From positions 1 to 64,000 of the IMG/VR virus record IMGVR_UViG_3300031885_000003: DNA of 64,000 nt; one strand, written 5' to 3'. The DNA is from a virus. The position numbers were made by a program, and so were the translations under genes. Every line of letters starts with the position of its first letter. Positions within the stretch are counted from its first letter, which is position 1. Under the pieces are notes generated by a model. That model did no database searches. It was not told the origin of the DNA and was given only the letters and a program-made list of their open reading frames with translations. Positions 7,216 through 62,179 of this stretch are shown in pieces.

Positions 7216-7595
7216 GCAAGAACCGAATCGTGAAGCGGGTCTCGATGGAAGATCCGGAGGAGTTCCTGCAGGAACCGGAGGAACCGGCCGAAGGGGTCAC
7301 GCGTACAGAAGACCTTGACGACCACGGCGTTCGAATTGGCGACGATATGGAGGATGAGCCGGTTGTCTCGGTTGATCCATCGCCCGCGCCCCTGATAGTG
7401 AACAACGCGCCACTGGAAGCAACCGTCATCACTGTAGATCGCAAACCCCTTCTTGCCCGCGCCTTGCCGTTCTTGGAGACGTTCAGTAGGCATGGCCGGG
7501 GCTCGCGGTGCCCAGTGTGCGCCCAAATCATCGGGCATAATGAGAACTGCAAACTGGCCGCGTTGATCGCGGAGATCGAGGCGGTCCTGAAATGA
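7212..7595 (+). CDS. Acidic hypothetical protein with CxxC motif
   Basis: A 127-residue product with a long acidic N-terminal half and a C-terminal zinc-knuckle-like segment (CPVCAQIIGHNENC, about residues 97-110). Coupled by ATGA to both neighbours. Function unknown. Confidence 0.65.
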   Translation: MSKNRIVKRVSMEDPEEFLQEPEEPAEGVTRTEDLDDHGVRIGDDMEDEPVVSVDPSPAPLIVNNAPLEATVITVDRKPLLARALPFLETFSRHGRGSRCPVCAQIIGHNENCKLAALIAEIEAVLK

Positions 7596-7867
7596 GGGAC
7601 AAAACCAAACCACTCGACAACTGGGATCCTATGGCCTACCACGGCCCGTTCAAGGCAACAGACAAGACGAGAAATAAGTTCATAAAGAACATCGAGAAGG
7701 CCGCGCCCATGCGAGACGTAATGCTCGTTCTTATGGACATAGATCCCGAGGCTCCGGGGTTTGCGTTCGAGAAACTCCCCTTGGAGGCACAACGAATTTG
7801 CAATGCCCGCTGTGTGACCTACATACAGGATGGAATGCCCGTGGTTCGCAATCCAAACCTACATTGA
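7592..7867 (+). CDS. Hypothetical protein, last gene of early operon
   Basis: A 91-residue product beginning MRDKTKPLDNWDPMAYHG. No domain recognised. It is the last plus-strand gene before the convergent late operon; a terminator hairpin lies about 30 bases downstream. Confidence 0.65.
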   Translation: MRDKTKPLDNWDPMAYHGPFKATDKTRNKFIKNIEKAAPMRDVMLVLMDIDPEAPGFAFEKLPLEAQRICNARCVTYIQDGMPVVRNPNLH

Positions 7868-7897
7868 CCCTACCGCCTGACCTGCGCCCGCGCCCAG

Positions 7898-7927
7898 GCC
7901 CTTGAGCCACACCGCTCAGGGGCTTTT
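7898..7927 (+). terminator. Intrinsic terminator between convergent operons
   Basis: GCCCTTGAG (7898-7906) pairs with CTCAGGGGC (7915-7923), one G-T wobble, around an eight-base loop, followed by TTTT. It ends plus-strand early transcription; the stem overlaps the stop codon of the last minus-strand late gene. I see no T tract for the minus direction. Confidence 0.7.
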
Positions 7928-10900
7928 CCTTTCAACAAGAGTCCATGCCTTTTTACGGTCTTCTTCGGAAATGGTTTCTGACCGTTTTATTTTTTGCAAT
8001 ATCGGAATACGATACACTTCTTTCTCCTCTGGCATCATCGCTTCCCAAACCTGCATCATCTCGGGAACGGTCCTCTCCCTGATCCGATCTCCAGCCCGTT
8101 CAATGTCCGCGTTCGTCCCCTTTTTACCAGACGAGAATATAGATTCCAGATTCGCCCTGTTTAGGGTTACCCCCGCCTTTTCTGCGGTCTCCACGGCCTG
8201 TCGTATGGATGTAATGTTACCACGCACATGTCCTCTCCTGAGCGCGGCAATCGTCTGGTATCTTTTCGTGTCTTCTGTCGAATACCCGCCAACTGGCCGG
8301 TCGCCCATCCTCATCTCGTCAAGCAACGCTTCTGCTTTAGTCTGCGTCAATACTTTTGACGCCGGCATGATGCCGACCAAAGGGGGTATCACACCGCCGA
8401 TGCCCTCGCCGGCTCCGACATTCCTTTGTGCCCCGCGAACCCAAAACGGGATATATTGTTTTGCCACAAACCCGGCAACCTGCGCAAGTTGTGTCATGAT
8501 CGGCGCGAACTCATCGCGGATCTGGTTGCCATAATAATCCTGATTCTTCACAACGTCGATGCCCGCTGAAATGAGGGGGTTTGCCTTATGGCCCAGGGTA
8601 CCCAGTGGGGACCGCCAATAAGCGAACAAGTCCTTTGCGTAGGTTGGCAACATCATCCGTTCGTCTTTGCCATACTCGTCCTTGCGGCCAGTGCGGAAGG
8701 CCCAGAAATCTCTATCCGTGGGTGTTTCTCCGGTGAAGGCCGTTGTCAATGCCCCATTGACTAGGGCGGTCGTCAATAAGAGCGAGATGGTGTAAGCTGC
8801 CCGATTCGTAATCTCCGGCTTGCGGAACCTCACAAGATCGGCGGCCACTTTAGCCAGGTCAATACCGCCACCTCCGACCTCTAGGATCGTGCCGCCAGTC
8901 CACCCCGGCGCACGGACAAGGGCCTGTACAACGTTCTTAGCGGCGTTGTTCATAAAAATGCGGTCGTAATTGACCTGACCCAACCGAGAGTCTACGCGAT
9001 TCCATATCTCACGTGCTGAGGCCCGCATTTCCTCATGGCCCGCTCCTGGATTCTGCGCCATCCAGTCATTCATCATTTCACCAAAGACGCCGAATTTAAT
9101 ACGCGGGACCAGCACTTCCATGATTGGGCGTGCTGATTGTTCGGCAAGCACCAACGGAGATCGCAATACGGCGGCGCCCTTCTTGGTCAACCCGCCCGCT
9201 TTCCAGTCTTGGACCATTTGCCGGGTGTGGCCTGTTTCCATCGTATACCGGCCCCACGGATGAAGTTTTCCCCCGCTTGCCATGAGGGCGTCGATAATCC
9301 CCGCCATGTCGCCACCTTGCGACCCTGGCTTTAGCCATTCTTTAATCAGTCTGTCGCCTTGTCGGAAATTGAGTATAGGTGCAACCGGCGCTTTTACAAA
9401 GGACCGCATGGCTGGCACCAATCGGCCCTGCGAGAGTTGCCTTATTCCCAATGCGCCTTCGGAAATCACAGATTCCATTGTGACGAACCCGCCGTGAAAC
9501 ATGGAAAACATCCCGAGCTGGAACTGGTTAAGGGAATTGGCCGCTCCCATGTAGGTTCGGAACGGAGAGCCAAAATATTTGTTGTTGTAGAGGCTTTGGG
9601 ATAGGTAGTTATTGATCACCTGTGCGGCCGCGTCTGCTGCGTAATAGTGGCCGACAAGCTGGGGTCCGGCGCCGCCTTCGGCTTTTGGCGCGTAGACCGT
9701 ACTGTATCGGTCGTTGATCTTCGTGAACCCGTCAGGGGCCTTCTTCCCGAGGCGCACAAACTCGATCTGGCCGCTGCCCTTGAGGGCGTTGATCGTTTGG
9801 TGGGCAATGAGGTACTTGTCCATCTCGGACATCTTGATTGCCACCAGATCGAGCGGGTTGGTCGAGACTGGCGTGTACCCAGCATCCAAACCGGCCTGAA
9901 CGTCATCGTAGACGCGCTGTCTCAGGAAAGACTTGCCGCCCTCCCACGGACGGCGCCCCATCGCCTGCTGGGCTGTCGCGCCTTTTTCTTTCCAGATGTG
10001 CGGGAAATAACTGTCGCGTACCTCTTCGAGTTTGCCCGTACCGAGCGCCTGAACGGCCTTGACCTTGGCTTCAAAGAGACTTCGTATCGAATCGGCAGTC
10101 GCCTGGAGTTGCGGGTTTGATTGGGCCTGGCCCGTATCCATCCGCTGCATGAAGTCGATATTGTCTTGCGGAGCCGCCCGCTGAAACGTGGTGTCCGCGG
10201 GTTTCATTGCCTCATGGAAAGCGTCCATTGCGCGGGCCGCTTTCGAGACTTCCTCGCTCGTAATGGCGCCGGTTTCTTTGCCGCCGCGCCGCAGAGTGGG
10301 GGCTACCAGCCGCACCATCCCATCAGTGGCATCGCGTATGGCGTCGGGTATCGCCGTGGCTCCAGGTGGCACAATCCCGAGCGGCTTACCAACAAACCTA
10401 CGTTGCCCTGGCAGATCAGCTCTGGGCCTTGCTTCGATTGCGGTTTCGCCAAACAATTCCTCCTGTCCCGGCGTTTCTCCGCGCAGTTCAACCAGCAATT
10501 TGTCAACCGTTTTGGTCGAACTCTGTTCACTCTCCAAAACCTTGCGTTGTGATTCAAGAGCGGAGATGGCCTGGACTTCACTCCCGTAGACGCCGACAAT
10601 GCCCTCTGCCTCTCTGGATAGACCCGGTGGGCCCCAGCGTTCGGGGGTTTCGACCGTCTCAGGTACCTGGGCGGGCGTTTCTATCTGCGCGTCAACGTAC
10701 TCGTCACCATACCGTTTCCGCGCCGCGCCTTCCCGTTCTTCCCCATACCGCCGCACATTTTTGTTCTTGCCGACGAGCAGGTCGCGGAACTCGTTCGTTG
10801 TATGGTCCGGGTCGAGCAACCCCATCTCGACCGCTTCTTGCCCCCACTGATCCCATGTGGTCTTGGCGTCACGCCTGAACAAACCGGGCGGGAACGCACC

Positions 10901-52245: not shown

Positions 52246-52574
52246 TGAGCATGAATGAACTTGCACACCAGATTCATGAATACGCCAAGGATAAAGGCTG
52301 GTACGACACGCACCCGAGCGTCGGTGAAATGTTGGCAAATGTCCACGCCGAAGTTAGCGAGGCGCTGGAAGAGTGGCGCAACGACCACATGGGCAAGTAT
52401 TTTGGAGAAGGCCACGATTGTAAGCCGTGCGGTTTTCCCTCAGAGATGGCCGACATCATTATCCGCGTGCTGGACATCTGCGCGTCGTTCGACATCGACA
52501 TCGACGCGGAAGTGTCGGCTAAGATGCAATACAACCAGACGCGCCCTTACCGCCACGGGGGCAAACTAGCATGA
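52242..52574 (+). CDS. MazG-like nucleotide pyrophosphohydrolase
   Basis: GTG 52242. The 110-residue product has the all-alpha NTP-PPase signature: VHAEVSEALEEWRND (E-x-x-E) followed by KPCGFPSEMADIIIRVLDIC, giving E-x-x-D with the metal-binding acids. It would hydrolyse nucleotides, possibly dCTP-type substrates or an alarmone. In phages such enzymes bias nucleotide pools or blunt the host stress response. Length fits the short phage form. Confidence 0.8.
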   Translation: MMSMNELAHQIHEYAKDKGWYDTHPSVGEMLANVHAEVSEALEEWRNDHMGKYFGEGHDCKPCGFPSEMADIIIRVLDICASFDIDIDAEVSAKMQYNQTRPYRHGGKLA

Positions 52575-53035
52575 AACCCATCGGCGTAGTCCAATCCGCC
52601 CCGGCTGTGCGCGGCCTACTCGACGGCGGGACCGTGCTGTGGGTGCCAGCTACAAAAGATCCATCATGTACGCGGATCTTTTGGGTTGAGAATGAAACGA
52701 CATTCCCCAATGGCAAATACACGGGGTGGGTCAAGGATTGCGGTGCGCCTTTCTTGATTCCCATTAAACCGCCCGTTCAGTCCGGCGATGTGGTATGGAT
52801 CAAAGAGACGTGGTGCGAAATACCGTGGGAAGACGGTATGGGCAAACGATCTACACGGGTTCTGTATCGGGCGATAGAACCGGAACTATTTGACCGCACT
52901 GTCGGCGATAAATGGCGTTCCCCCGTCACCATGCCCCACTGGGCCTCGCGTTTCGAGCGCATCGTCACGGCTATCGGCATGGAGCGGCGGGACGGCATGT
53001 GGCAGTGGCGGATCGAGACGGAGATAACACCATGA
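52571..53035 (+). CDS. ASCH-like domain phage protein, divergent copy
   Basis: The 154-residue product MKPIGVVQSAPAVRGLLDGG follows the pattern of the family at 440 and 54,983 (start MKP, conserved VQSGDVVWIKETWCEIPWED near 75-90) but is much more divergent and shorter. It ends RRDGMWQWRIETEITP. Function unknown; a nucleotide- or RNA-binding PUA-like fold is plausible. Confidence 0.65.
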   Translation: MKPIGVVQSAPAVRGLLDGGTVLWVPATKDPSCTRIFWVENETTFPNGKYTGWVKDCGAPFLIPIKPPVQSGDVVWIKETWCEIPWEDGMGKRSTRVLYRAIEPELFDRTVGDKWRSPVTMPHWASRFERIVTAIGMERRDGMWQWRIETEITP

Positions 53036-54783: not shown

Positions 54784-54980
54784 AAGACTGGCCCGGTAAA
54801 TGCCCCTACTGTGGTGGAACCACAGGGTTATACATGAAAACCAAGGCCGATGTGACTCAGTGGGTGCTATGGAATGGCGAAATTGAGGACACGGAAATAG
54901 GAATTGTGACACTCCGCAAACGCGCGGAATGTATAGACTGCGGGCGCATCGTTACGATACCAGGCACGGCAAAGGAGTAG
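54780..54980 (+). CDS. Zinc-ribbon protein (66 aa)
   Basis: ATG 54780 after AAGGAGAAA. The product MKDWPGKCPYCGGTTGLYMK has CPYC and a later CIDC (about 52-55), a classical zinc ribbon around a beta hairpin. Function unknown. Confidence 0.65.
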   Translation: MKDWPGKCPYCGGTTGLYMKTKADVTQWVLWNGEIEDTEIGIVTLRKRAECIDCGRIVTIPGTAKE

Positions 54981-54982
54981 GC

Positions 54983-55675
54983 ATGACCGACAAGCCAATG
55001 AAACCGCTACTGATGTGCGGCCCCATGGTGCGGGCGTACATGGCGGGGCTCAAGTGGTGTACCCGCCGCGTAGTCGTGCCACAGCCGGAACAAGATGGAG
55101 ATAGATTTTGGTGGCACGGCGATTGGGATACCCGTGGCGGGCCACACGCTGGCGTCTGTACACACGGCAAACCCGGTAACGGTGAACCAACGTGGACCCT
55201 AAAGGAAATTGCCGAACACGCCCGCTATCAGCCCGGCGATCTGTGCTACATCCGGGAACGTCAGCGGGTGATCGAGGTTAGGAGGCATCACCTTATCCGC
55301 GTCCGCTACGAAGCCGATGGGGCCGAAAGTGATTGGATTGAATACCCGGAGCGTTGCAAATGGAAACCTATCGTCGGCAAATGCCTACCTTATGGTGGTA
55401 TCCGCGAAACTGCGCGGTTGTTTCCGCCGATCACGGACACGCGGGCCGAGCGACTGTGGGATATTACGGAAGAAGATGCGATAGCCGAGGGCGTAGCAGA
55501 AGGGGAATGGTACGATTATGTGGAACATCAACAAATAGGTGGTGTAGCACTTCCATACGGGATTTTCGAGACGACATTTATGTGCCTATGGGATAGTCTC
55601 AACGCCGCACGCGGCTACCCCTTTTACAGCAACCCGTGCGTGTTCCGGTATGGGCTGGGGAAGGAAGAGGCATGA
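54983..55675 (+). CDS. ASCH-like domain phage protein, copy 2
   Basis: ATG 54983 (MTDKPMKPLLMCGPMVRAYM) after AAAGGAG. The 230-residue product matches 440-1,060 over its length with an extra stretch at about 40-70 (FWWHGDWDTRGGPHAGVCTH). DNA from about 55,495 to 55,590 is nearly identical to 885-975, more than amino-acid conservation requires, so exchange or duplication is recent. Probable nucleotide/RNA-binding protein. Confidence 0.75.
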   Translation: MTDKPMKPLLMCGPMVRAYMAGLKWCTRRVVVPQPEQDGDRFWWHGDWDTRGGPHAGVCTHGKPGNGEPTWTLKEIAEHARYQPGDLCYIRERQRVIEVRRHHLIRVRYEADGAESDWIEYPERCKWKPIVGKCLPYGGIRETARLFPPITDTRAERLWDITEEDAIAEGVAEGEWYDYVEHQQIGGVALPYGIFETTFMCLWDSLNAARGYPFYSNPCVFRYGLGKEEA

Positions 55676-55839: not shown

Positions 55840-56102
55840 GCGGGAAAACGACAACAATTAAGCCAGTCGTAAACCTTACGGCGACAGAGGAACTTCGCCT
55901 GATGTGCGGGCTAGATATTCCGCGGTGGGGCGGGTTCAACATCAAGGGTAAGTTGGTTTATGTTGGGCGAACTCGGAGCCAGGTTATTGCACAATTTGAG
56001 AAACACTACTGGGCTGGCTACTGGCGAGACTGCTATCGGCGCGGGTGCCGAATCATACGCATCGGATTGATAGAACACGAGCATAAAGGGGATAGTAAAT
56101 GA
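55836..56102 (+). CDS. Hypothetical protein (88 aa)
   Basis: ATG 55836 following AAGGAGCAGGC. The product MSGKTTTIKPVVNLTATEEL is basic with an aromatic-rich middle (HYWAGYWRDCYRRGCRIIRI). No family recognised. ATGA overlap with the DUF5131 gene. Confidence 0.55.
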   Translation: MSGKTTTIKPVVNLTATEELRLMCGLDIPRWGGFNIKGKLVYVGRTRSQVIAQFEKHYWAGYWRDCYRRGCRIIRIGLIEHEHKGDSK

Positions 56103-57112
56103 GCGAGAAAACGAAAATTTCGTGGGCAGATGCAACGTGGAACCCGCTATCAATGTTGTGTACGCCATGCAGTCCGGGTTGTGACCATTGCTGGCATCTG
56201 CGCATGGCAAAACGGCAAGCCGCCAATTCCGCATTGCCCGTTGAAGTTCGCATTGCATGTGCGGGCGAAACTGGACCCGTACTCACGAGTCGGGTGAGTC
56301 AGCCGTTGCAGTGGAAGACGCCGAAAACCATAGCGGTGCAACTCATGGGCGACTTGTTTCATGAGTCGGTAGAACCATGGATGCAATACGAGGTCTATAG
56401 GCGGATGGCTCTTGCGCCTCAGCACACGTACATGATGTGTACGAAACGGGCTGAGATTATGGCGGCGCGTGTGCCAGACATTATGTTTCATTTACGGCGC
56501 AATGAAAGCGCGTTTAATCCCGGCATCTTGGCGAAGGGGTATTTGGAAAACATCGCCCACGGCGTCACCGTCTGCAACCAAGCGGAAACCGCTAAACTGG
56601 CCATACTCTGCCGGATGGCTGGCAAACTGTGGGTGAGCTACGAACCCGCGTTGTCCGCAGTGGATTTTACGCCGTGGCCTTATCGGCGGGTGGAATGTCA
56701 TTGCCCTGAGCCAAAGATTCTGTACCATGATCCACAGGAATTGGTGTCTGAATGCCGAAGCAAAGAAACTACAAATCGCCTCTCCCTCGTTGTCGCCGGC
56801 GGCGAGACTGGCCCCGGCGCACGGCCCGCACACCCCCAGTGGTTTCGCAAAGTGCGCGATGACTGCAAAGCCGCGGGGACGCCGCTCCATCTGAAAAGCC
56901 TCGGGGAATGGAGCACACAGAAGCCCCGAGTTTACGCAGGCGAATGGGGAACGCTCGATGAGAATGGCGAGTATTGGAGTCGGACAACGCCGTGGAACGG
57001 ACGCACAGGCGTAGATAGCGAGACCGGAGAAGTTTTGGTCTATCGCATCGGCAAAGCCCTTGCGGGCCGCGTGCTGGATGGGCAGGAGCACGACGGGGGG
57101 ATTGCGTGGTGA
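56099..57112 (+). CDS. Gp37/Gp68-like (DUF5131) protein
   Basis: The 337-residue product starts MSEKTKISWADATWNPLSML, then CTPCSPGCDHCWHLRMAKRQ, the hallmark start of DUF5131 proteins with a Cys cluster that resembles a radical-SAM iron-sulfur site. VQLMGDLFHESVEPWMQYEV and the late AGGETGPGARPAHPQWFRKV segment are also family marks. Activity is unproven; similarity to radical SAM enzymes suggests base or RNA modification. It lies near the putative modification pair at 57.6-59.3 kb. Confidence 0.8.
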   Translation: MSEKTKISWADATWNPLSMLCTPCSPGCDHCWHLRMAKRQAANSALPVEVRIACAGETGPVLTSRVSQPLQWKTPKTIAVQLMGDLFHESVEPWMQYEVYRRMALAPQHTYMMCTKRAEIMAARVPDIMFHLRRNESAFNPGILAKGYLENIAHGVTVCNQAETAKLAILCRMAGKLWVSYEPALSAVDFTPWPYRRVECHCPEPKILYHDPQELVSECRSKETTNRLSLVVAGGETGPGARPAHPQWFRKVRDDCKAAGTPLHLKSLGEWSTQKPRVYAGEWGTLDENGEYWSRTTPWNGRTGVDSETGEVLVYRIGKALAGRVLDGQEHDGGIAW

Positions 57113-57323: not shown

Positions 57324-57349
57324 AATCTCTTGACGTTTTGGGGAACACG
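57324..57349 (+). promoter_or_regulatory. Promoter-like motif shared with 62,180
   Basis: AATCTCTTGAC, five variable bases, GGGGAACACG, then TATGAC at -10 distance. The same 26-base design occurs at 62,180-62,205. Six bases separate it from the ATG at 57,355, and no ribosome site is present, so the transcript may be nearly leaderless. Confidence 0.5.
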
Positions 57350-57354
57350 CGCGT

Positions 57355-57570
57355 ATGACTAAGAAGTCTCAGAACCCAAAAGGGCTAAACGCTAACCGTA
57401 TGTACCGAGCACGATACCGGCAAAAGGCCAGCGGGATTGAGCTTGTTGAGGTAGGCCGAAATGAGTTGCAGCAGTTCCGCAAACATGGGCGGATACCGCT
57501 CGACGTATACCGGGAAATAATGCAAGATGAGGCCGATTGGGCGGAAGAACAAATGGAGGGGGCGAGGTAG
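57355..57570 (+). CDS. Hypothetical protein (71 aa)
   Basis: The product MTKKSQNPKGLNANRMYRAR is basic at its start and acidic at its end (EIMQDEADWAEEQMEGAR). It follows the shared promoter-like motif, heads the ParB-like/ABC-GNAT operon, and ends two bases before the next start. Function unknown. Confidence 0.6.
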   Translation: MTKKSQNPKGLNANRMYRARYRQKASGIELVEVGRNELQQFRKHGRIPLDVYREIMQDEADWAEEQMEGAR

Positions 57571-57572
57571 GC

Positions 57573-58163
57573 ATGGCGGGTAATGCCCAAAAAAAGAAGC
57601 CCTATAATATCAAGGCTTTAGCCGACATTTCTCCTGATCCGAAAAATGCGAATCGTGGTACCGAACGTGGCCTCGGGATGCTTGATCAATCACTCCGCAC
57701 ATACGGCGCAGGCCGCTCAATCCTATGCGACCGCAAGGGCGTGGTGATCGCCGGCAACAAGACACTCGAACGTGCTGCCGACATCGGCATGGACGTGGAG
57801 GTAATCCAGAGCGACGGCACCCGGCTCGTGGTGGTACAGCGGACCGACTTGGACTTGGCGGAAGGCGGGGCCGCGCGTGAACTGGCCTATGCCGACAACC
57901 GGGCGGGGCAGGTCGGGCTTGACTGGGACCCGGCAGTATTGGCGGCGGACCTCGCGGCGGGGGTTGACCTGGACAAGTTCTGGCTACCGGGGGAGATGGA
58001 ATTGATCGGGCCAGAAAAAGAGTCGGAACCGCTAGATGCCTCACCACAACTTGGCGCACTGGAATACCGGATCGTCGTGACGTGCCGGGACGAAGAACAC
58101 CACGCCGAAGTCTTGTCGATGCTTCAAAAAGAAGGGCTTGAATGCAAAGTTTTGATATCGTAG
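57573..58163 (+). CDS. ParB-like (ParB/Srx fold) protein
   Basis: ATG 57573. The 196-residue product shows the ParB-Srx plan: strand (YNIKALADISPDPKNANRGT), helix (LGMLDQSLRTYGAGRSILCD), the GVVIAGNKTLERAADIGMDV helix that carries the conserved GN-x-R-type box, and LAYADNRAGQVGLDWDP. Phage relatives are usually encoded beside DNA-modification or packaging genes and may recognise nucleic acid or act as nuclease/CTPase. It overlaps the ABC-GNAT gene by 22 bases, which argues for joint function. Confidence 0.75.
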   Translation: MAGNAQKKKPYNIKALADISPDPKNANRGTERGLGMLDQSLRTYGAGRSILCDRKGVVIAGNKTLERAADIGMDVEVIQSDGTRLVVVQRTDLDLAEGGAARELAYADNRAGQVGLDWDPAVLAADLAAGVDLDKFWLPGEMELIGPEKESEPLDASPQLGALEYRIVVTCRDEEHHAEVLSMLQKEGLECKVLIS

Positions 58164-59269
58164 TTGAAAGCGATGTATCCGCCTCTGCGCGGTGTAGGCA
58201 ACTGGAAGGCATGTTCGATGTGCCGCCGTCGAAACGATCGCGCCTACAGTTCACTGGCGAACTCGATCTCGACTCGCAACCCTGGAGCGTGGGCCTGATT
58301 GTCGGCCCGTCCGGGGCGGGCAAGTCCACAATCGCTAAGTACCTCTTTCCCGCTGAATATGGGCGTACTTACGAATGGGGCAAACAGAGCGTTATAGACG
58401 ACTTCTCAGAGACGCTTTCGGTTGCGGACATATCGAGCGTATGTCAGGCGGTCGGGTTCAACACTATACCGGCGTGGCTACGCCCATTCGCCGTGCTTTC
58501 CACTGGCGAGCGATTCCGAGTGGAACTTGCCCGCAACCTTATCGAAGGCGGCGATCTCATTGTAATGGACGAATTCACGTCCGTTGTGGATCGGCAAGTC
58601 GCGCAGATCGGCGCGAACGCAGTCCAGAAATACGTGAGACGAAACGGAAAACGATTTGTGGCCGTCTCGTGTCATAGCGACATAATCGACTGGCTTCAAC
58701 CTGATTGGATCTACGAACCGGCGTTGTCCAGGTTCGTAAGGGGGTTAGTTCGGCGACGCCCAAGCATGGAGGTCGAAATCACAAGAGTCAATTATGAAGC
58801 GTGGAAACTATTCGCTCCATTTCACTATCTGACGGCAGAACTAAACCGGGTGGCGAAATGTTTCGGGCTTTGGATTGGTGGGCGCTTAACGTCCTTTGCC
58901 GGATTGCTCTGCCGCCCAACCAAGAAAGCGGATCTATGGGGTGTGAGTAGGCTTGTAACGCTACCAGACTGGCAGGGGCTGGGATTGGCAATGATACTGG
59001 CGTGCAAGATGGGCGGGGCGCACAAAGCCATTGGCAAGCGGCTCCATACCTATCCCGCGCATCCGAGCCTTATGAGGTCGTTTGATAAATCGCCGGAATG
59101 GGCGCTCATAAAGAAGCCAGGAGAATTCAAGGGCAAGGAAAACCAAAAGGGGTTTAAAGCCATGAAGGGAAACCGCATAGATCCGAATAACGAGGGCCGT
59201 CCCTATGCCGTGTTTGAATATTGCGGTCTAGCAATGGACCGCGCAGAAGCGGAGGCCCTACTTGCGTAA
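58142..59269 (+). CDS. ABC-type ATPase fused to GNAT (Mom-like) acetyltransferase
   Basis: The 375-residue product joins two enzymes. Residues about 45-200 form an ABC ATPase: Walker A VGPSGAGKST, signature LSTGERFRVELARNL, Walker B DLIVMDEFTSVVD and the switch His in VAVSCHSDIIDW. Residues about 210-340 form a GNAT-like domain (ITRVNYEAWKLFAPFHYLTA ... LVTLPDWQGLGLAMILACKM). This is the COG2401 plan. Related GNATs include Mu Mom, which modifies adenine in phage DNA. No membrane partner is present, so it is not a transporter. Partner ParB-like gene upstream. Modification of DNA is inference. Confidence 0.75.
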   Translation: MQSFDIVVESDVSASARCRQLEGMFDVPPSKRSRLQFTGELDLDSQPWSVGLIVGPSGAGKSTIAKYLFPAEYGRTYEWGKQSVIDDFSETLSVADISSVCQAVGFNTIPAWLRPFAVLSTGERFRVELARNLIEGGDLIVMDEFTSVVDRQVAQIGANAVQKYVRRNGKRFVAVSCHSDIIDWLQPDWIYEPALSRFVRGLVRRRPSMEVEITRVNYEAWKLFAPFHYLTAELNRVAKCFGLWIGGRLTSFAGLLCRPTKKADLWGVSRLVTLPDWQGLGLAMILACKMGGAHKAIGKRLHTYPAHPSLMRSFDKSPEWALIKKPGEFKGKENQKGFKAMKGNRIDPNNEGRPYAVFEYCGLAMDRAEAEALLA

Positions 59270-59617
59270 CGTCACAATGCGCGGCTCCTGGCCTTTGGGC
59301 TGGACTTCGACACGGAAGAACCCGAGATGCCCTTTCGCCGGAATCGGATTGATCCGCCGGACGTTGGCGATAACCCAAGCGTACATGTTCGGGATGTGCG
59401 CGATACAAGCGGCGTCTTCGTCTGCGCGTACAAACGGGCGGCACTCGATAATGTCAAACACGGCAATCGCAAAACCCGCGGGGTATATTGCGGGCGACGC
59501 CGAGGAACACAAGAGCACCTGCGCTCGGGGAGGCGTGCTCCACTGGCGGATCTCCAACGTTTTCCGCCCCTGGGCGATCATGTTCGCCCAAGGCTGTTTG
59601 ACGCTAAGCGCAATCAT
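59258..59617 (-). CDS. ASCH domain protein (canonical)
   Basis: Start ATG 59617 (MIALSVKQPWANMIAQGRKT), coupled to the gene upstream whose stop overlaps. The 119-residue product has the ASCH hallmarks: KQPWANMIAQGRKTLEIRQW at its start, a strand pair, and a C-terminal strand (GHLGFFRVEVQPKG). A second possible ATG lies twelve bases upstream. ASCH domains bind RNA or modified bases. Convergent with the ABC-GNAT gene by a 12-base overlap. Confidence 0.8.
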   Translation of the reverse strand: MIALSVKQPWANMIAQGRKTLEIRQWSTPPRAQVLLCSSASPAIYPAGFAIAVFDIIECRPFVRADEDAACIAHIPNMYAWVIANVRRINPIPAKGHLGFFRVEVQPKGQEPRIVTLRK

Positions 59618-59618
59618 T

Positions 59619-60086
59619 TCACGCGGCATGGAGCGGCCCGAAAAGGCGGTGCAACTCTGCGCACGCTGCGTTGTAGTCGTTTTGATCCCACGCATTACGT
59701 CCACCTTTGCGCATCCTGCGATTGCCTACGTCCGCTGCGGCTGCGCGGCCTATTGCGTCTTGCATCTGAGGCGAGCGGGCCTTGCAGTGAGGCCGCGCCT
59801 GTGCTTTCATTCTCGCCCGTTCCATCTTCGCTTGTTCGATCCTACACGCTTTTTGTTTCCCCATCAACTCTATCATCGCATCGGCGATTGGCTTGCGGGC
59901 CTCGATTACGGCAAGAAGTTCCGTTACTCTCGCGTGGCGGCTTCCATTCTCGGGGTCTTGCACGTCCGGCGAGAGCATAAGGAGTTCAAGGCGATCCCGC
60001 CACAAATCGTAGTCCACAATGTCCGGCCCGTTGATCGGCAAGTTGCGGAAACGGCTACACGGGGACGCTCGAAATGCTTTCCTCAT
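59619..60086 (-). CDS. Hypothetical protein (155 aa)
   Basis: The product MRKAFRASPCSRFRNLPING is helical and basic with MIELMGKQKACRIEQAKMER and a Trp-rich end (GGRNAWDQNDYNAACAELHR). ATGA overlap with the upstream minus-strand gene. Member of a three-gene minus operon inserted between modification genes and terminase B. Not recognised. Confidence 0.6.
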   Translation of the reverse strand: MRKAFRASPCSRFRNLPINGPDIVDYDLWRDRLELLMLSPDVQDPENGSRHARVTELLAVIEARKPIADAMIELMGKQKACRIEQAKMERARMKAQARPHCKARSPQMQDAIGRAAAADVGNRRMRKGGRNAWDQNDYNAACAELHRLFGPLHAA

Positions 60087-60313
60087 TTTGCACCTGCAAT
60101 CACGTCCGCAAGGGCAGTCTCGGCTTCTTCACGAGTTTCAAATGTCTTTGAACGGATCCCCTTCGTAAAGCCCGAAACATATTCTTTCGTCAAGGACATT
60201 GGCACAAGCCCGCGAAAACCCCATCGCCCTGTCGGGTATTCTACGAGTGTGCATTTCGTGGGGGTCTTTTCGTGCATCTTATTGAACATCATTAAATCGT
60301 TCCAATCGCTCAT
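60083..60313 (-). CDS. Hypothetical protein (76 aa)
   Basis: ATG 60313 behind GAGGGAGGG. The product MSDWNDLMMFNKMHEKTPTK has a beta-hairpin core (YPTGRWGFRGLVPMSLTKEY) and a C-terminal helix (TREEAETALADVIAGAK), like small AP2-type integrase-arm or RNA-binding folds. First gene of the minus operon. Confidence 0.6.
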   Translation of the reverse strand: MSDWNDLMMFNKMHEKTPTKCTLVEYPTGRWGFRGLVPMSLTKEYVSGFTKGIRSKTFETREEAETALADVIAGAK

Positions 60314-60459: not shown

Positions 60460-60948
60460 ATGCCTAAGAACGGCAAACCCCGCCCCCGCCAGTTATACGA
60501 CCCCGCACGCACGCCGGGCATCATCCGGGCACTCGCCCAGGCTGGCCACACGAACGCTGAAATGGCGGCGCTGCTCGACGTGTCCAGCAAATGCCTGTGG
60601 CAGTGGCGCGACAAATATCCAGAGGTTCGAGCCGCGCTCGATGACGGCAAGACGGTTGCCGATCAGATGGTCATAGACGCGCTCTACAAACGGGCGCTCG
60701 GGTATGAGTACGAGGAAACCGAAGTCAAAGGCGTAGTAGACGAACACGGGCAGCCTATCGGTATGAAGGAAGTTAAGAAGGTCAAGAAACAGATGGCCCC
60801 GGATGTGGGCGCGTGTTGTTTCTGGCTCAAAAACCGTAGACCCGATGAATGGCGCGATGTGTATAAGGGCGAGGTATCCGCCAATATTATCCTGTCCGTA
60901 ATTCCGCCCCCCAAACCCAATGCCGCCTCAGAGCCGACTACAAATTGA
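60460..60948 (+). CDS. terS: Terminase small subunit B
   Basis: The 162-residue product MPKNGKPRPRQLYDPARTPG has an HTH at about 25-55 (GHTNAEMAALLDVSSKCLWQ), a central beta/helix unit (YEYEETEVKGVVDEHGQPIG), and the end CCFWLKNRRPDEWRDVYKGE, characteristic of this TerS family. No ribosome site is visible before the ATG, suggesting a short or absent leader. Overlaps TerL B by 29 bases. Confidence 0.85.
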   Translation: MPKNGKPRPRQLYDPARTPGIIRALAQAGHTNAEMAALLDVSSKCLWQWRDKYPEVRAALDDGKTVADQMVIDALYKRALGYEYEETEVKGVVDEHGQPIGMKEVKKVKKQMAPDVGACCFWLKNRRPDEWRDVYKGEVSANIILSVIPPPKPNAASEPTTN

Positions 60949-62179
60949 CCTGAGCCGCCTGGCTGAGGCATGTGTCCCTAGATTCTACCCGTTATATTTC
61001 AATCGATCCCGATTCTTGGTTATGGTAGGCGGGGCCGGATCGGGCAAGTCTCATTTTGCGGCAGAAAAGGTACTTGGACGGCTCGTATCAGAGCAGGGCC
61101 CACATCGTTTCGTGGTTGGACGCAAAGTACAACGAACGCTGCGGGCTTCATGTTTCCGCCTCTTGAATGACTACATAAACCGCTGGGGTTGGACAAAACA
61201 TTTCAACGTCAACAAGTCTGACCTCGATATTACATTCATGCCCACAGGCGCACAGATCATGTTTGTCGGTATGGATGACCCAGAGAAACTAAAATCCATC
61301 GAACAACCCACGGGCTTCTGGCTGGAAGAGGCTACTGAATTCAGCGAGGAAGATATAGGTCAAGTCAACCTGCGGTTACGCACTGATATCGTGCCATACA
61401 TGCAGATCATGTTGACGTTCAACCCAATATCAATCAATCACCACCTAAAGACTCGTTTCTTTGATTGTGAACCAACCGAACGCATAACTACGATGCGATC
61501 AACGTTCTTGGACAACCCGTTTTTGGTTGCATCCTACCGCGCTGAACTAGAAGACCTCCGGCTGCGCAACCCGTCGTGGTGGACCATTTACGGCCGTGGC
61601 GAATGGGGCGTCATGGAAGGGTTGATTTACGACCCGCCCATCATAGGGCTATGGCCGGAATCATTCGATGAAACGTTCTACGGGCTCGATTTTGGCTACA
61701 ATAACCCGACGGCGTTAATCCAGGTTGACATAAAAGACAAGGTTCCGTACCTAACAGAACTAGTGTACGAAACGGAACTCACCAACGCTGGGTTGATAAA
61801 ACAACTGACTGGTAGTGAAGCGGAAGGGCTTATTAAGCCGCTTATCACAAACCGGAACTTACCCATTTATGCCGATGCCGCCGAACCAGGACGCATCGTC
61901 GAAATACGTAATGCCGGGTTCAACTGTAAACCCGCCGACAAGGGGCCAGGTTCGGTCCATGCCGGGATATCATTCTGCAAAGGAGTAAAGCTTTATACCA
62001 AATCTAGTAACGCCAATCTAAACGCGGAGTTTTCCTCTTATGTCTGGCTAAAGGATAAAAACGGCAAGACGCTGGATGAACCAATAGCGGTCAAAAATCA
62101 TGCCATGGATGCTATGCGTTACGGCCTATGGACACACTTGGGCAAACGCCGTCCGTTACAGCCAATCCGCGTCCGATAA
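60920..62179 (+). CDS. terL: Terminase large subunit B (PBSX/Terminase_3 type)
   Basis: The 419-residue motor has Walker A VGGAGSGKSHF (about 36-46), Walker B GFWLEEATEF (about 126), a coupling motif (LTFNPIS), and a nuclease half with Asp in YGLDFGYNNPTALIQVDIKD (about 246), Asp in IYADAAEPGRIVEIRNAGF and AMDAMRYGLW near the end. A full set of PBSX-type landmarks. Works with the portal at 62,223. Start overlaps TerS B. Confidence 0.93.
   Translation: MPPQSRLQIDLSRLAEACVPRFYPLYFNRSRFLVMVGGAGSGKSHFAAEKVLGRLVSEQGPHRFVVGRKVQRTLRASCFRLLNDYINRWGWTKHFNVNKSDLDITFMPTGAQIMFVGMDDPEKLKSIEQPTGFWLEEATEFSEEDIGQVNLRLRTDIVPYMQIMLTFNPISINHHLKTRFFDCEPTERITTMRSTFLDNPFLVASYRAELEDLRLRNPSWWTIYGRGEWGVMEGLIYDPPIIGLWPESFDETFYGLDFGYNNPTALIQVDIKDKVPYLTELVYETELTNAGLIKQLTGSEAEGLIKPLITNRNLPIYADAAEPGRIVEIRNAGFNCKPADKGPGSVHAGISFCKGVKLYTKSSNANLNAEFSSYVWLKDKNGKTLDEPIAVKNHAMDAMRYGLWTHLGKRRPLQPIRVR

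Follow-up and report, generated by a model that had tools for sequence, protein, structure and literature searches.

A single mark of the kind made by Mom of phage Mu can weaken the action of many restriction enzymes simultaneously. A distinct family, in which an ABC ATPase is joined to a GNAT domain, has been predicted to acylate a DNA base; PMC7824862 credits this prediction to the Aravind group (Iyer et al. 2013) and names Tenacibaculum phage pT24 as a carrier. In the Dnd DNA-modification systems, a ParB-superfamily protein (DndB) stands beside an ABC ATPase (DndD).

Here we describe a phage locus in which a ParB-like gene overlaps a gene for an ABC ATPase-GNAT fusion. With the family of Iyer et al. 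(phrog_11143), as presented in PMC7824862, the fusion shares both architecture and predicted function: the family match is full-length over both domains, the ABC motifs and the acyl-CoA loop are intact, and phage pT24 is a tblastn relative (E = 4e-44). The sequence-only reading of this DNA had known of no described system with exactly this set of genes, a claim that does not hold for its core, given that base acylation by an ABC-ATPase/GNAT family had already been predicted (PMC7824862, in the part citing Iyer et al. 2013). Apparently undescribed are the fixed ParB partner with its gene overlap, the positional link to ASCH genes, the swaps with Mom and the linkage to genes for PanD, CoA-transferase and formyltransferase, some of which may stand in Iyer et al. 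2013. Compared to the Dnd systems, the module has neither DndC nor DndE nor a coiled-coil ABC ATPase, and is predicted to transfer an acyl group instead of sulfur.

Layout of the locus

The stretch of DNA analysed (the window) comprises bases 1–64,000 of an 82,853-base IMG/VR phage record, and all four genes named by the sequence-only reading (ParB-like, ABC-GNAT, ASCH and DUF5131) were found at the locus. The ParB/Srx-like gene (57573–58163, plus strand) encodes a product of 196 aa with a conserved C-terminal tail, counted from the ATG at 57573, which sits after a purine-rich stretch and is, judging from the sequence, the likely start; the open reading frame begins with a TTG at 57537 and stops at 58163. 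The product matched the profiles phrog_620 (ParB-like, E = 3e-13) and phrog_498 (ParB-methylase, E = 7e-13), and a Pfam search with it returned no family above cut-off. The reading frame overlaps that of the following gene by exactly 22 bp (58142–58163, plus strand), just as first noticed. This second gene (58142–59269, plus strand) encodes the 375-aa fusion, which matched PF00005 (36.4 bits; cut-off 25) and, over residues 6–365, i.e. both domains, phrog_11143 (E = 2.2e-94). Motif conservation in 121 sequences and the structural model place the ABC ATPase domain at 58142–58741, and alignments, model and structural matches (see below) place the GNAT domain at 58754–59266.

Convergent with the fusion gene is a gene for an ASCH-domain protein (59258–59704, minus strand; PF04266, 34.9 bits; cut-off 21.2), the stops of the two genes overlapping by 12 bp. 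The span from ParB to ASCH is 57573–59704; the originally proposed span of 57324–59617 started too early and ended within the ASCH gene. Two overlapping minus-strand genes (59619–60086 and 60083–60313) without any family match separate the ASCH gene from the terminase genes. The small (60460–60948) and large (60920–62179) terminase subunit genes (together 60460–62179, plus strand; phrog_309, phrog_3717 and PF04466) provide a late, packaging context outside the ParB/ABC-GNAT module. Upstream, two proteins of phrog_874 (52571–53035 and 54929–55675), a family of unknown function, look ASCH- or PUA-like by eye, with no supporting Pfam match. In agreement with the first reading, no partner permease, as would mark an ABC transporter, occurred among the family-matched neighbours or the recurrent neighbour clusters.

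The ABC-GNAT fusion and its relation to Mom

The ABC part carries the full Walker A, signature and Walker B that had been read from it, namely GPSGAGKST (residues 55–63), LSTGE (119–123) and LIVMDE (DE143–144), followed by a D-loop (S147..D150-R151) and the H-loop CHSD (H178). The residues of these five motifs are invariant or nearly so in an alignment of 121 relatives, window included (A4). Equally constrained in the GNAT part are H228, Y229, R270, P275, G279 and W320, invariant or near-invariant in A4 and a second alignment (A5), and the acyl-CoA loop PDWQGLGLA (residues 275–283) fits the general GNAT motif Q-x-x-G-x-G/A. The C-terminal half of the window protein had no Pfam match of its own; relatives pass the Pfam cut-off for Acetyltransf_1.

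AlphaFold2 modelled the full-length protein from A4 with a pLDDT of 93.5 and a pTM of 0.87. Because a full-length Foldseek search was swamped by ABC transporters, the GNAT part was also modelled alone, from A5, giving a confident GNAT fold (pLDDT 91.4). Against the PDB, this model matched GNAT acetyltransferases such as 1y9k and RimI (5isv) with E of about 1e-6 and TM of about 0.6. Another structural match, BFVD entry A0A8S5PZ92 (Siphoviridae sp. ctG0D7), is named aspartate 1-decarboxylase, possibly through misannotation or as a GNAT-linked decarboxylase.

Proteins and RNA are common GNAT substrates, RimI and protein acetyltransferases are among the top structural matches, and sequence similarity links the ABC part to EttA, ABC-F and SufC. 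We therefore considered that the GNAT domain might serve host takeover by acylating RNA (tRNA or rRNA) or a host protein, the ABC part acting on ribosomes or RNA like ABC-F. Against this stand the genomic associations presented below (the ParB partner, the swaps with Mom, a pairing with a DNA methylase and the position near terminase), and we regard an RNA or protein substrate as unlikely.

The GNAT domain had further been assigned to the type related to Mom of Mu. What the two share is the GNAT fold, an H-Y motif close to where the domain begins and, as described below, a locus downstream of ParB that either can occupy in sister phages. We reject membership of the Mom family (PF25680; PDB 8bv8) on sequence grounds: the PF25680 profile did not match the window GNAT, its best relative reached only E = 0.059 (13.5 bits; cut-off 27.1), and hhalign gave a probability of 8%, with the alignment confined to the region surrounding the HY motif. 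Mom also differs in having no ABC domain and no PDxQGxGxG acyl-CoA loop, which is missing from it in alignment A3 and is kept in the window protein. Structurally, Mom of Salmonella phage FSL SP-031 ranked 37th (E = 3.5e-4) in a Foldseek search of viral models, and 8bv8 was not among the 50 listed PDB matches of the GNAT model. By sequence criteria, then, the window domain is a GNAT in the broad sense, more canonical than Mom, and not a Mom.

Conserved neighbours among the relatives

A tblastn search with the window protein found relatives in 73 phage records; there are at least 595 in the viral collection and 469 in bacterial genome contigs. The loci that we read were the best-scoring ones, with open reading frames called mechanically, so that the counts describe close relatives and not a random sample. 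A same-strand ParB-like gene, recognised by HMM, lay no more than 500 bp upstream of ABC-GNAT in 156 of 177 loci. Of the remaining 21, 6 were cut off just upstream, leaving 15 of 171 testable loci without ParB. The survey thus bears out the suggestion that the two genes travel together. The overlap was again 22 bp in 71 of the 156 loci and 19 bp in 9, and streptococcal and lactococcal phages encode ABC and GNAT as separate adjacent genes with the same ParB ahead. ParB is not strictly required, because it is missing beside ABC-GNAT in some lineages (Mu-like, Straboviridae and flavobacterial phages). In Gordonia phage AnClar (L011), an HNH endonuclease gene (604–1089) separates ParB from ABC-GNAT, and phages of the AnClar cluster have the module at the cohesive genome end.

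In 83 of 127 loci a large terminase gene (TerL) lay no more than 4 kb downstream, as would be expected if the module were an accessory for packaging or DNA handling, with the ABC ATPase as its working end and the GNAT activity incidental. Yet the GNAT residues (HY, R270, the acyl-CoA loop and W320) are among the most conserved, and clades in the Mu position or linked to CoA-transferase (see below) argue for chemistry, which makes this very unlikely. Among TerL relatives of the window phage, one close sister (L338) keeps the whole ParB/ABC-GNAT/ASCH set, which is absent from 26 remoter ones, several of them fragments. The same sister has a second ParB-profile match after the terminase (7340–8434), continuing into a part that by eye resembles a Dam-type adenine methylase.

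Of the 254 loci able to show it, 39 had an ASCH gene within 1 kb downstream of ABC-GNAT, whereas the corresponding upstream interval held one in 1 of 241 (Fisher p = 2.6e-11). More distant flanking sequence carried ASCH at a rate of about 1% per kilobase. On a tree of 168 rows, the ASCH label required 25 changes for 29 rows, indicating numerous gains or losses of ASCH at this position. This repeated association suggests a functional link with ABC-GNAT, although a favoured insertion site is a possible alternative source. The catalytic residues of the ASCH amidohydrolase YqfB, which hydrolyses ac4C, are Lys21-Thr24-Arg26-Glu74 (PMC6972931). The window protein (motif GRKTLEIR) and the main associated ASCH groups share with it the domain and the conserved G.K..E.R pattern; however, Glu replaces the nucleophile Thr24, and a YqfB-like deacylase is therefore unlikely. 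The protein may, as first suggested, read a modified base or nucleotide.

The DUF5131 gene just upstream (56099–57112, plus strand; PF07505, E = 2e-55) does encode the radical-SAM-like Cys cluster ascribed to it, a CX3CX2C motif (CSPGCDHC) accompanied by a weak match to TIGR04471. As DUF5131 was near ABC-GNAT in only 7 of 177 loci, we reject it as a module component and treat it as an incidental neighbour. The supposed co-occurrence of all four genes is accordingly reduced to ABC-GNAT with ParB and, in a good many but not most loci, ASCH at a constant position.

In several phage pairs ABC-GNAT and Mom replace each other. Arthrobacter phage EastWest has ParB/ABC-GNAT, and at the same locus in phage Shade ParB is followed by a small gene and Mom. 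The two phages share the gene preceding ParB (66% identity), ParB itself (55%), the DNA-binding protein that comes next (80%) and the sliding clamp (45%), whereas the ABC-GNAT and Mom payloads do not align. Pasteurella phage Pmp13 (ParB/ABC-GNAT/terminase) likewise parallels L414 (ParB/Mom/terminase), with 45% identity in ParB and 25% in TerL, and in Microbacterium phage Appa ParB overlaps Mom. A C5-cytosine methylase with 72% identity between L328 and L417 is followed by ABC-GNAT in the former and by Mom in the latter, and one locus (L436, 3974–5772) has Mom (PF25680) and ABC-GNAT as adjacent, overlapping genes. Aeromonas phage PX29 carries both at separate places. In Pseudomonas phage Komp_PAO1_1, which has a Mu Gam-like gene and also a formyltransferase, ABC-GNAT follows the tail-fibre assembly gene, a position comparable to that of mom in Mu. 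Use of a common cargo site, and not common chemistry, might explain the swaps, although ParB is retained in two of the cases. A ParB of the ABC-GNAT type lay upstream of Mom in 4 of the 80 Mom loci read, so this partner is not general for Mom.

Two clades, each clustering on the tree, link ABC-GNAT to genes of the acyl-donor type. Loci like that of Gordonia/Rhodococcus phage Jace encode PanD (PF02261, E = 2e-33; 14 of 39 loci) and a short class III CoA-transferase (PF02515; 18 of 39) directly downstream on the same strand (L004, phage Jace, 7101–8212; also L084, L087, L152, L155, L219–L224, L231–L235 and L238). Among their conserved motifs are the Y-x-G-S self-cleavage site of PanD and, in the CoA-transferase, a GDT motif; we tentatively take the latter to lie at the catalytic Asp of formyl-CoA transferase. 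In loci related to Porphyromonas Mu-like phages, 64 of 80 have a PurN-like formyltransferase (PF00551). Loci with this gene directly after ABC-GNAT include L008 (7107–7724), L012 (7125–7598), L328 (6124–6792) and many of L257–L336. These formyltransferase-linked genes of Mu-like phages also occupy a position comparable to that of mom. The simplest reading is that such neighbours would supply the acyl donor locally, e.g. beta-alanyl-CoA. None of the three profiles (PanD, CoA-transferase and formyltransferase) matched in the window or in the rest of the record (64,001–82,853), so that in the window phage a host acyl-CoA, for instance acetyl-CoA, may serve as donor.

A candidate DNA acylation cassette

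Of the readings weighed, base modification, as first proposed, is the best supported by these genomic comparisons, through the ParB partner, the ASCH position and the exchange with Mom at one locus. In its specific form, to which we give a probability of roughly 0.6, ParB and ABC-GNAT constitute a cassette that acylates the bases of phage DNA in an ATP-gated manner ahead of packaging. The GNAT domain would move an acyl group from acyl-CoA to the exocyclic amine of a DNA base, and the ABC ATPase, presumably a dimer pairing two GNAT domains, would draw on ATP for gripping or opening the DNA. In other contexts, NTPase and DNase or nicking activity is known from ParB/Srx domains (PMC5512222); here the protein might guide or license the reaction, or process DNA itself as an NTPase or nicking domain. 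ASCH would be an optional accessory binding the modified base or nucleotide. With the cassette just upstream of terminase, modification would come late, and the modified DNA would be shielded from host restriction, as Mom does for Mu. That DNA is the substrate we infer from the ParB partner, the Mom swaps, the methylase pairing and the terminase proximity; the direction of the chemistry, the roles of ParB and ASCH and the late timing are likewise proposals. Counting against this reading are the position of the GNAT outside the Mom family by sequence, the lack of ParB in some carriers and the occurrence of donor-type genes in other clades and not in the window phage.

The activities of ParB/Srx domains (PMC5512222), the known use of GNAT domains as effectors (PMC10853773) and weak PADLOC matches to MADS ATPases would also suit an anti-invader or superinfection-exclusion effector, in which ParB acts as nuclease or NTPase, the ABC part as sensor and the GNAT as a suicidal modifier of protein or RNA. 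However, no PADLOC system matched well, the synteny is with terminase and not with defence islands, and the gene swaps with Mom; we consider such an effector quite unlikely.

Extending the acylation reading to the whole family, we tentatively propose, as a possibility that we would not favour over its negation, that ABC-GNAT cassettes form a large class of systems acylating phage DNA with varied chemistry, the acyl donor being made by linked genes. In Jace-type phages, PanD would convert aspartate to beta-alanine, the class III CoA-transferase would yield beta-alanyl-CoA, and the product would be a beta-alanyl base; elsewhere the donors would be formyl-type or plain acetyl-type. The ATPase would load the transferase on DNA, ParB would guide it and ASCH would read the mark. 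A literature search for phage DNA modification involving PanD and CoA-transferase returned nothing relevant, and to our knowledge no beta-alanyl, formyl-type or acetyl-type modification of DNA by an ABC-GNAT protein has been described.

Hundreds of phages and prophages carry a member of the family. A constant ParB partner, exchange with Mom at the same locus and linkage to genes of the donor-making type now turn a predicted enzyme family into a testable one. For a culturable phage, the linkage to donor-type genes predicts a specific chemical outcome, a base heavier by a beta-alanyl-type group, and the EastWest/Shade pair offers a natural comparison of ABC-GNAT with Mom.
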